From Lachnospiraceae bacterium GAM79 (GTDB taxonomy: Bacteria; Bacillota; Clostridia; Lachnospirales; Lachnospiraceae): a DNA stretch of 64,000 bases. A program made the translations under genes and the position numbers. The first letter of the stretch is position 1. Every line of letters starts with the position of its first letter. Below the pieces are notes generated by a model. It did no database searches. It was not told the DNA's origin and worked only from the letters and a program-made list of their open reading frames with translations. Location: the NCBI GenBank assembly GCA_003584705.1, contig AP018536.1:2480001-2544000 (forward strand). The letters run 5' to 3'. Of this stretch, positions 30,042 through 39,749 are shown piece after piece.

Positions 30042-30180
30042 TATGTTTTTGTGCCGTTTTTGCATTAAAATGCATGAATATTTTTATGAAATCATCATTT
30101 TCCGACATGTTTGCTATGGTTTTTACATTTTTACATTTTTTACGTTTTTACATTTTTTTACAAGGAATCGCGTTTGCAGT

Positions 30181-37180: not shown

Positions 37181-37750
37181 TCAGAATTTCTTTTCCGTGT
37201 GCTCAAAATTCTCGATGGAGCGGCTGATGTTTCCGTAAAGAGTGATTGCCAGTTCTTCAACGATCTTATGATAATCGTCCTTCATTCCCCGATCAATCCA
37301 GTCTAACATCACACCCACAAAACCGTATTTGTAAAATCCGGCAATGAATTCCTTGTGTTCCTCCGCTACCTGCATGCCGGTGCACTTTTCCTCCACCACG
37401 TCCGCAATGAGCTGGTAGGTCAACTTGTTTAAGTAGCTTTCGATCTTCTGGCGATCCACGCAGCGGTAGACATTCATAATGAAAGGTTTATTCTCCTGCA
37501 CTGCCTCGAAAATCTGGCAGAAGCCTTCTTGCCAGTTCTCGTAGGTCTTCTTCCCCTGCAGTGCCTTCGTGCCGTCTTCCACGCAGACCCACTCTACCAG
37601 ATCATAGATGTCCTTGAAATGATAGTAAAAAGCCATCCGGCTGATGCCGCAATCCTCTGCAAGTTCGTTAATGGTGATCTTATCCAGAGACTTCGTGAGA
37701 AGTTCTTTTTTCAAAGCTGCTTCCAACGCCAGTTTCGTTGTATTGGCCAT
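37181..37750 (-). CDS. TetR/AcrR family transcriptional regulator
   Basis: A 189-residue regulator with an N-terminal helix-turn-helix (ITINELAEDCGISRMAFYYHFKDIYDLVEW read as ITINELAEDCGIS and AFYYHFKD). The C-terminal part resembles the DhaS-like TetR group. It is transcribed toward the oleate hydratase gene, separated by about 150 bases with inverted repeats, so it is probably a repressor that responds to fatty acids. GGAGG precedes the ATG. Confidence 0.87.
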   Translation of the reverse strand: MANTTKLALEAALKKELLTKSLDKITINELAEDCGISRMAFYYHFKDIYDLVEWVCVEDGTKALQGKKTYENWQEGFCQIFEAVQENKPFIMNVYRCVDRQKIESYLNKLTYQLIADVVEEKCTGMQVAEEHKEFIAGFYKYGFVGVMLDWIDRGMKDDYHKIVEELAITLYGNISRSIENFEHTEKKF

Positions 37751-37816
37751 AGCCTGTCCTCCACTGTTTTATGTATTATTTTCTGTTCTTCCTCGATATA
37801 GCTTATGTAATTCTAT

Positions 37817-37937
37817 TATAAGCTCACGCATTCGTACCATCGTACTCTACATCTTACTTCACAGGATATTCATTCGCTAAGGTTGTCGTTCGTCAATCAT
37901 GTAAACATGTAGACTTCCTTATACTCATTATATTGTA
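37817..37937. repeat. Dispersed intergenic repeat, short form
   Basis: The left half (ATAAGCTCACG to TTCGCTAA, 37819-37880) and right half (GTCGTTCGTCAATCATG to ATACTCATTATAT) both recur, with changes, at 53771-53832 and 53949-54003. The long form there has about 115 extra bases in the middle. No gene is present. It looks like a small non-coding repeat family of this genome. Confidence 0.6.
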
Positions 37938-37984
37938 CGACAATAGACTCAAAATGGGCAAATTAACTTTTTATAAAAAAACTC

Positions 37985-38013
37985 TTGCTTTTTGTAAAAT
38001 TCCATGGTATTAT
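37985..38013 (+). promoter_or_regulatory. Promoter of the first tRNA-Pro
   Basis: TTGCTT (37985-37990) and TATTAT (38008-38013) are 17 bases apart. The same arrangement is repeated for the second tRNA. Confidence 0.65.
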
Positions 38014-38026
38014 CTTACTTGCGTTT

Positions 38027-38101
38027 CGGGGTGTGGCTCAGCTTGGTTAGAGCGCCGTCTTAGGGAGGCGGAGGTCGCGAGTTCGAATCCCGCCACTCCG
38101 A
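38027..38101 (+). tRNA. tRNA-Pro (anticodon AGG), copy 1
   Basis: All arms fold: acceptor CGGGGTG/CACTCCG, D arm around GCTCAGCTTGGTTAGAGC, anticodon stem CCGTC/GGCGG with loop TTAGGGA, T arm with GTTCGAATC. Anticodon AGG reads CCU. The CCA end is not encoded. Confidence 0.95.
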
Positions 38102-38108
38102 TCCATGT

Positions 38109-38147
38109 ATAGGCGTCAAAATCTTTTTACGAGGTTTTGACGTCTTT
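38109..38147 (+). terminator. Terminator after tRNA-Pro copy 1
   Basis: GGCGTCAAAATC pairs with GAGGTTTTGACGTC, followed by TTTTGTTTTG. Confidence 0.65.
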
Positions 38148-38212
38148 TGTTTTGTATTTTATTTGCTGCTTTGGAAAATTGTAGAAAAAATTTGAAAAAT
38201 TTAAAAAATGGC

Positions 38213-38241
38213 TTGCTTTTTATAAAATTCTATGCTATGAT
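38213..38241 (+). promoter_or_regulatory. Promoter of the second tRNA-Pro
   Basis: TTGCTT (38213-38218) and TATGAT (38236-38241) are 17 bases apart. The sequence closely resembles the first promoter, which supports a tandem duplication. Confidence 0.65.
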
Positions 38242-38252
38242 AGTCTTCGTTC

Positions 38253-38327
38253 CGGGGTGTGGCTCAGCTTGGTTAGAGCGCCGTCTTAGGGAGGCGGAGG
38301 TCGCGAGTTCGAATCCCGCCACTCCGA
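38253..38327 (+). tRNA. tRNA-Pro (anticodon AGG), copy 2
   Basis: The 75 bases are identical to copy 1, which starts 226 bases earlier. It has its own promoter and terminator. Confidence 0.95.
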
Positions 38328-38336
38328 TTCATTGTA

Positions 38337-38363
38337 AAGTCCTTGATTTTCAAGGACTTTTTT
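38337..38363 (+). terminator. Terminator after tRNA-Pro copy 2
   Basis: AAGTCCTTG and CAAGGACTT form a 9-bp stem with a short loop, followed by TTTT. Confidence 0.75.
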
Positions 38364-38499
38364 GTGTTACATTTCATGTTGTATCATGGTACTTTTCTGA
38401 TTTCCTCTATGTTTCCTTTTGGTGTTTCCCTATAGCCACATATGCGTATTGAATCTTTCTGCTTGGAAGTCATCGGGGTATACTGTAGAATTTTGGTAG

Positions 38500-38800
38500 A
38501 TTACGCCCCACTATCGAAACACTAACGGGGCTTATCTGAAACATTTTAAAGATTTACGCCCCGCTTTCAGAACGCCAACGGGGCTTATCTGAAACATTTT
38601 AAAGATTTACGCCCCGCTTTCAGAACGCCAACGGGGCTTATCTGAAACATTTTAAGATTTACGCCCCGCTTTCAGAACGCCAACGGGGCTTATCTGAAAC
38701 ATTTTAAAAATTTACGCCCCACTTTCTAAGTTTCAACGGGGCTTAGCACAAAGAAATTATAAATTAAGCCCTAGTACTCAAGATTTAGCGGGGCTTAACA
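38500..38800. repeat. Tandem array of six 53-bp hairpin repeats
   Basis: GCCCC words begin at 38505, 38558, 38611, 38663, 38716 and (as GCCCT) 38768, a period of 52-53 bases. Each unit has GCCCCG...CGGGGC arms about 15 bases apart, then TTATCTGAAACATTTTAAAG. The three central copies are nearly identical; the outer ones have drifted. In the central copies TTTCAGA inside the loop can also pair with TCTGAAA after the stem, so the two pairings interleave. There is no gene inside. It lies between tRNA-Pro and the 3' end of a hydrolase gene. Confidence 0.85.
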
Positions 38801-38835
38801 AACACAATTTCAGCATGCTTATGAGCTCCACTTAA

Positions 38836-39669
38836 TCATCCAGACACTCCTTTCCCATCTACCTCGCTGAAAAATTTTTCTATCAGTCTGTTTACTTCAT
38901 CCGGTTGGTCAGTATTGGAATTATGACCGGCATTTTTTATCCATTTAAGCGGTAAACCTTCTCTCTGATGCCATTTCTTATTATAGCTTTTTGCTGAACC
39001 TGCTTTATCCTTTTCTCCACAGATAAGAAGTGCCGGACAACTGATACGATATGGCAGATCTGCTTTGATTGCCTCAGCAAGCATCCTGTAACCAAAACCG
39101 GCGAGCCTTGCATATTCTTCAGGATCTGAATCATAGGACATCATCATCTTCCGCATAAGATTCTGACCATAATCCGTCTCTGCGCACCCTCTTGACCCTG
39201 CCCTAAGAAGCACTTTCCATGGATATATCTTATATAATGGCTCTGCTCTTTCAAGAAGCCATATTTCCACTGCGGTCATATAAGACTTTTGAAGAGGTGC
39301 GGAATCAATGGAGATAAAGCCTTTTATCTTATCCGGATATAATTCCATATACATTTGAGCCAGATATCCCCCCATAGACTGACCGATAATTATGGGATTA
39401 TAAATTTCTTCTTTTACTAAGATTTCATAAAGCCATTCTGCCATGTCAGACAGACTGTAATTATTCGTAAATGGTCTGGATAATGCATGTGATGGTGCAT
39501 CCCATACAAACACATTCTGTCTCTTCTCAAAATATTCTGTCTGCTTTTCAAAAAGCCTATGGTCTGCCGTAAGTCCCGGTAAAAACACTAACGTAATTTT
39601 CTGCTTGTCTATTATATTTACAAAATAATGAATGCAGCCACAGGGTGTATTATAACTGTTTTCTGTCAT
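38836..39669 (-). CDS. Alpha/beta hydrolase
   Basis: A 277-residue alpha/beta-hydrolase-fold protein with the nucleophile elbow GQSMGG, a late acid in CGEKD and the catalytic His in NAGHNSN. The oxyanion region FLPGLTADHR and the Asp-containing VWDAPSHALS are also typical. There is no signal peptide, so it is cytoplasmic; the substrate (ester, amide or lactone) is unknown. I start at 39669, where AAAGGGG precedes the ATG. Its stop lies about 35 bases from the tandem repeat array. Confidence 0.85.
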   Translation of the reverse strand: MTENSYNTPCGCIHYFVNIIDKQKITLVFLPGLTADHRLFEKQTEYFEKRQNVFVWDAPSHALSRPFTNNYSLSDMAEWLYEILVKEEIYNPIIIGQSMGGYLAQMYMELYPDKIKGFISIDSAPLQKSYMTAVEIWLLERAEPLYKIYPWKVLLRAGSRGCAETDYGQNLMRKMMMSYDSDPEEYARLAGFGYRMLAEAIKADLPYRISCPALLICGEKDKAGSAKSYNKKWHQREGLPLKWIKNAGHNSNTDQPDEVNRLIEKFFSEVDGKGVSG

Positions 39670-39749
39670 TTCCCGTCCCCTTTCCATAAACCATTTCCCA
39701 ATGATTTATCCTTCATATGCCACCTTCATTGACCGATTAACAGAAGACC

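Follow-up and report, generated by a model that had tools for sequence, protein, structure and literature searches.

The array of inverted-repeat units at approximately 38497-38813 of the window, by which we mean the whole stretch of 64,000 nucleotides that was analysed (C1:2480001-2544000 in a genome that consists of one contig and has 4,078,671 bases, 4.08 Mb), is one of eight dispersed, homogenising arrays in the chromosome. By analogy with described systems, we consider it rather probable that these arrays constitute a lineage-specific modular intergenic repeat working like STAR of Staphylococcus aureus and BOX of the pneumococcus. We propose the following model. A 52-bp module, made of a core with inverted repeats (T-N-CGCCCC and GGGGC-T-T-A, the arms separated by 17 bp) and a locus-specific filler, is multiplied in tandem and homogenised at each locus, as is shown by a comparison of related genomes, between which the number of units differs. 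Some arrays travel inside a dispersed element with inverted ends, present or absent site by site, and in eight of eight cases the arrays lie 3' of genes and never between divergent ones. Conservation of the arms may reflect recognition by a putative host protein or by whatever multiplies or moves the module. Against this reading stands that no transposase was found tied to the repeat.

In the window, TRF and repeat finding place six units at spacings of 53, 53, 52, 53 and 52, confirming the periodicity described in the earlier note. The pattern GCCCC-N17-GGGGC, with at most one mismatch, matches six times in the 64 kb, each time inside the array, while shuffled windows yield a mean of 1.35 matches and none of 100 shuffles reaches six. 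The features are as follows, + being the strand that reads GCCCC...GGGGC...TTA.

38497-38813, +: whole tandem array, six units of 52-53 bp
38505-38531, +: core of unit 1, GCCCC-N17-GGGGC with A after the left arm (pattern match)
38558-38584, +: core of unit 2 (pattern match)
38611-38637, +: core of unit 3 (pattern match)
38663-38689, +: core of unit 4 (pattern match)
38716-38742, +: core of unit 5, with diverged loop and following linker (pattern match)
38768-38794, +: core of unit 6, left arm GCCCT, a distinct end unit that is kept at the orthologous site of the genome G112
38565-38571, 38618-38624 and 38670-38676, +: TTTCAGA in the loops of units 2-4
38535-38541, 38588-38594, 38641-38647 and 38693-38699, +: TCTGAAA after units 1-4
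38253-38327, +: tRNA-Pro(AGG), second copy, left neighbour of the array
38335-38361, +: hairpin resembling an intrinsic terminator, between tRNA-Pro and the array (terminator scan)
38836-39687, -: alpha/beta hydrolase gene, its stop codon towards the array

Two details of the earlier description need adjustment. The arms GCCCCG...CGGGGC, given there for every unit, are exact in units 2-4, but the left arm is GCCCCA in units 1 and 5 and GCCCTA in unit 6; and a second complementary pair, assigned to the three central copies, holds for TTTCAGA, which occurs in units 2-4, but not for TCTGAAA, which follows units 1-4. A short TTTTTACA tandem repeat is also found in the window, at 30120-30158.

When this genome was searched with a covariance model of the repeat core (R1), 150 of 1976 candidates were scored, and the 62 matches at E<=1 all fell on eight tandem arrays. 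Named by their position in kb, and with units counted at no more than one arm mismatch, the arrays are these.

a1047, -: 5 units
a1217, -: 8 units
a1342, -: 13 units
a1675, -: 14 units
a2518, the window array, +: 6 units
a2918, +: 8 units
a3109, +: 10 units
a3307, +: 4 units

They hold 68 units in all, 4-14 per array. A genome-wide census with GCCCC-N15..20-GGGGC-N24..33-GCCCC returned 58 forward and 53 reverse matches, every one within the eight array loci, and none in the reversed control; it is limited to GCCCC/GGGGC arms, and arrays with other arms would escape it.

How do such arrays spread and change? Three of them, a1047, a1217 and a1675, sit in one shared element with inverted-repeat ends, which measure about 180 bp by BLAST between copies and 136 bp at 92% within a1047; fragments of the element lie near a3307, elsewhere in the genome and in G112, a genome of the same genus. 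Around a1342, a2918, a3109 and a3307 we found no inverted pairs of at least 40 bp, and none around the window array. Since five of the eight arrays thus lack a recognisable inverted-repeat element, mobility is shown for some arrays only. A dispersed repeat family with inverted ends, near 1047, 1217, 1675, 469, 1400, 2874, 2995, 3277 and 3570 kb, was also noted; a 191-base piece of it has 16 matches, only some of which lie beside arrays.

The search in other genomes that the earlier note had suggested, together with its count of units per strain, proved informative in G112, where 11 of 13 queried flank pieces were found. The ortholog of the window array has four units against six, a single copy standing in for three of the window. 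At a3109, one full unit and two partial ones stand against 10, and at a1342 there is an array, interrupted by a contig break, whose consensus differs but whose lengths are the same. No array match was found at a1047, a1217 and a2918, two of which lie in the inverted-end element. The sites of a1675 and a3307 end at contig breaks, leaving six readable in total. These differences between the sequences compared amount to changes in the number of units, to homogenisation, and to sites gained or lost; recombination or slippage would bring about the homogenisation, and the absences in G112 could be deletions. At the corresponding site of G112 the hydrolase gene that adjoins the window array is lacking, and a 178-aa ORF further on has no counterpart in the window; the edge of the array may be a place of gene turnover.

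The behaviour just described recalls several known repeats. STAR is described as a short GC-rich intergenic motif with spacers of 40-44 bp and tandem repeats of about 50 nt, whose spacers are near-identical within a locus and distinct between loci, with a differing last spacer (the 'anchor'), whose unit number varies and whose distribution among species is patchy; the paper states that its function, origin and spread are unknown (PMC3532100). Here too the spacers are constant in size, homogeneous and specific to their locus, and the number of units varies. Unlike STAR, the present arrays have a 27-bp inverted-repeat core, reach 14 units and lie partly in an element with inverted ends. The STAR motif TNTGTTGNGGCCC has no exact match in the window; with up to two mismatches there are nine matches, all carrying two, against a mean of 15.2 in shuffles, and one of them falls inside the array (38790-38802, -).

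BOX, according to PMC3049150, combines fixed ends with a variable number of tandem internal modules, is over-represented between convergent genes with a strand bias that follows the coding strand, and is argued there to be parasitic with some regulatory effects. Fixed ends around variable modules are seen likewise in a1047, a1217 and a1675, and the gene contexts are similar. The comparison, made by description, also brings out differences: five of the eight arrays lack recognisable common ends (apart from the fragments near a3307, none were seen for a1342, a2518, a2918 and a3109), and there is a single module size of 52 bp.

REP and BIME sequences are described as extragenic palindromes that form regular arrays, in many cases 3' of genes, and BIME-2 is reported to bind gyrase in E. 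coli (PMC2817692, PMC3733652). In contrast to these, the arrays here run head-to-tail and do not alternate. In four of the eight arrays the REP tag GTAG stands ahead of the core in the first unit and in some of the later ones, and in the window it does so in one of the six units, short of what a REP assignment would take. The associated RAYT, sought as PF01797 (Y1_Tnp), is represented in this genome by one match that an internal stop interrupts, about 48 kb away from the closest array (the Y1_Tnp-like frame at L292, G000:C1:1723914-1724237, G000 being this genome); G178, a genome of another genus, has four, and neither G191, of a further genus, nor G112 has any, so that G112 carries arrays without a Y1_Tnp match. 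With no exact STAR motif in the window, BOX-like ends in three arrays and REP unlike, we file the repeat with the STAR/BOX kind, as a member of neither.

A repeat of about 30 bp at regular spacing has some likeness to CRISPR. We rejected a CRISPR array, as the earlier note had done: within one array the fillers are nearly the same, and they change in concert. A coding role was likewise set aside, given that window-array units contain stops and that ORFs run in all frames of a1675, 52 not being divisible by 3. We found no title or abstract describing these repeats in the open-licence literature, and a BLAST search of window 38490-38820 for a phage or plasmid origin gave no match.

All eight arrays stand 3' of a gene. 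Four lie between convergent genes and four between co-directional ones, none between divergent genes (for the window array, tRNA-Pro is taken as the left neighbour), and with the array read GCCCC...GGGGC the stop of the right-hand gene faces it in seven of eight. The exception is a1675, to whose left the chorismate synthase gene ends and whose right-hand ORF, with the transposase domain DUF772, is on the other strand. By Pfam, the flanking genes are unrelated: alpha/beta hydrolase, GatB, TPP enzyme, ComEC-type competence protein, MurJ-like, SSF symporter, MatE and chorismate synthase. The 13-unit array (L158:3802-4531) lies between the stop of the ComEC-type gene and a co-directional ORF (245 aa, no Pfam match). 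Beside a1675 we also noted a large serine recombinase gene (L159:980-2605) and the DUF772 transposase ORF (L159:2939-3787).

Such positions invite the view that the units are multiplied terminator-like hairpins that stop read-through between genes. The arms are GC-rich, a terminator with similar arms adjoins the orthologous array in G112, and a scan detects terminator-like sites inside a1342 (nine, on the listed strand) and a1675 (six, on the other strand). The same scan finds none in the other six arrays on either strand, and co-directional genes flank four arrays; we give this explanation very little credence. The special case raised in the earlier note, a transcription block behind tRNA-Pro, fares no better. 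A tRNA-Pro does stand upstream of the array, but there are two near-identical tRNA-Pro(AGG) genes in tandem (38026-38105 and 38253-38327) and not one, the nearer of them followed by its own terminator-like hairpin, and in the loci of the other seven arrays, 8.5-9 kb each, ARAGORN detects no tRNA. The hairpin and the missing tRNAs leave the proposed block unsupported.

Would the arrays act as RNA? A chain of hairpins or an H-type pseudoknot could function in the 3' end of a neighbouring transcript; the hydrolase stop lies about 30 nt from the array, and the terminator scan finds no terminator-like site in between. Whole-array folding gives z-scores of -4.4 and -6.4 on the two strands against 100 shuffles, a pairing potential on both such as inverted arms confer. 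In three window-array units the pair TTTCAGA/TCTGAAA has uncorrected P values of 0.003-0.007. The G112 counterpart of the central copies opposes TTTCAGA to TCTGAGA (7 bp, one wobble, P 0.065), and four of 10 units in a3109 show, at P<=0.02, an 8-bp match that includes wobbles and lies on the other strand. When loops and linkers were compared across 80 distinct pairs with 400 shuffles, however, Watson-Crick complementarity at P<0.05 was found in six (three of six in the window array, three of 10 in a3109, where the match is of 5 bp and unlike the window pair), and with G.U allowed in three on the listed strand, all in the window array, and five on the other (four in a3109, one in a2918). About four in 80 would be expected by chance, and the two or three arrays concerned have unlike matches.

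The stems themselves also lend little support to RNA helices. In partition-function folds of tandem units, for which one unit was taken per array (for G112 C8 a unit other than the ortholog of the central copies), hairpins within a unit compete with hairpins between units, and neither kind prevails consistently. A C.T mismatch sits beside the arms in 55 of 67 distinct units, a flipped pair is seen in just one of the 67, and arm changes are almost all one-sided, eight cells leading to G.T on the listed strand and 10 to A.C, a wobble on the other strand, which is nearly equal per strand. Rfam finds only tRNAs in window 37500-39500. In the window array and its ortholog the second stem is real, yet it does not characterise the family. 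The pseudoknot of the earlier note is thereby confined to one locus, and the covariance analysis it called for found almost no compensatory change in either stem. We regard a folded RNA as very unlikely.

The units are more constant in length than in sequence. Among 87 units (68 here and 19 in G112) the loop between the arms measures 17 in 85, with single cases of 18 and 19, lengths of 14-20 having been allowed when units were sought, and the linker measures 25 in 68 of 72, 26 in three, all in the window array, and 24 in one. The consensus drawn from this genome's six families reads T.CGCCCC[GC]...[C]CGGGGCT[T]A. Units are alike inside each array, and between families identity is 29-76% for loops and 20-56% for linkers, that of the arms being partly built in by the search design. 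The G112 arrays, reached via orthologous sites, provide a fairer test of arm conservation. There, 13 units, each paired with the most similar unit of this genome and including the two worst, edge units, differ at 10/130 in the arms and 132/546 in loop plus linker (Fisher 1.2e-5, with cells that are not independent because the units are homogenised). These rates, with the near absence of covariation, support the view that the arms are kept as DNA sequence and less as RNA pairs, and from them we infer selection on the arms.

For the lengths, flanking non-coding DNA served as the yardstick, with three indels per 54 substitutions in 704 aligned bases, a sum in which at least one shifted stretch is aligned as substitutions and from which a fourth, inter-tRNA stretch was left out (163 bases, seven substitutions, no indel). 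At the ratio 3/54, 7.3 consensus indels would be expected and one is seen (P=0.006); at 1/54 the shortage has P=0.30. The first figure suggests a constraint on unit lengths. Constant lengths of 17 and 25 and conserved, asymmetric arms exceed what a purely neutral repeat needs.

Beyond this genome the repeat is patchy. R1 matches at E<=0.001 occur in three of 138 genus genomes, our own included, under strict filters with 46 candidates scored per genome, and the match in G074 is a single hairpin. Among 397 family genomes a first pattern matched in 41, our own included, mostly once or twice, and the reversed control scatters likewise. A second pattern matched in 26, led by G178 with 30 matches and G191 with 26, both with control counts of 0. 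In G191 there is an array with a 64-bp period, 10.6 copies and GGGGC/GCCCC arms (L314:1660-2335, G191:C94), and in G178 there are short arrays of 71 and 72 bp (L315, L317), which means that tandem arrays with GCCCC/GGGGC arms are found elsewhere in the family at other periods. Alternating GGGGCAT/ATGCCCC palindromes were also noted at several loci of G178 (L252-L257). Of 86 genome-contig stretches, 80 were scanned with R1; L104 contains an array, L071 and L119 show a single palindrome by eye, and the remainder were judged by the R1 table only. Viral contigs yielded 18 stretches, each with one core.

What could account for strict spacing combined with free filler? It is conceivable that the GCCCC/GGGGC half-sites are recognised by a host protein, dimeric or cooperative, which would act on the nucleoid, supercoiling or replication, much as gyrase is bound by BIME-2 arrays in E. 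coli. The half-sites would lie 22 bp (about two turns) apart and recur every 52 bp (about five turns), all on one side of the helix, and fixed lengths amid diverged sequences, the indel shortage at the 3/54 ratio and the conserved, asymmetric arms are in keeping with this. So is orientation. With dnaA at 440 and a GC skew that turns between 2.0 and 2.2 Mb (20 sampled 10-kb stretches), by which we placed the terminus since a search for a dif-like pattern found none, the listed strand of all eight arrays is the lagging strand (sign test 0.0078). This bias may merely follow co-direction with leading-strand genes, seven of eight right-hand genes facing the array, and is weak evidence. That all arrays lie at least 772 kb from dnaA (P=0.022) was noticed post hoc and is not used as evidence.

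Several observations speak against such a binding array. The indel shortage has P=0.30 at the ratio 1/54; the array is absent at three of six readable G112 sites; 135 of 138 genus genomes lack an R1 match at the threshold and filters given above; and the genome searches, with the R1 candidates scored as stated, showed no single core outside the arrays. The periods of 64 and 71-72 bp in two other genera, which correspond to 6.1 and 6.8 turns, also mean that exact helical phasing is not universal. Argued by analogy, a binding array thus seems to us possible but unlikely. A bolder proposal, that chromosome-wide, replication-oriented arrays are read by a putative Lachnospiraceae protein that tolerates any filler if its length is kept, other genera having their own period, is a long shot.

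Were protein binding to prove correct, the arrays would present half-sites two turns apart with five turns to the unit. On the modular-repeat reading that we prefer, the arrays would add a further lineage with STAR- and BOX-like habits, distinguished by strict spacing and by orthologous arrays at different stages of turnover. The arrays break assemblies, the G112 contig ends C5, C7, C28 and C38 lying inside them, and they would serve as variable-number markers. They would also offer a comparative handle on how such repeats arise, move and homogenise.
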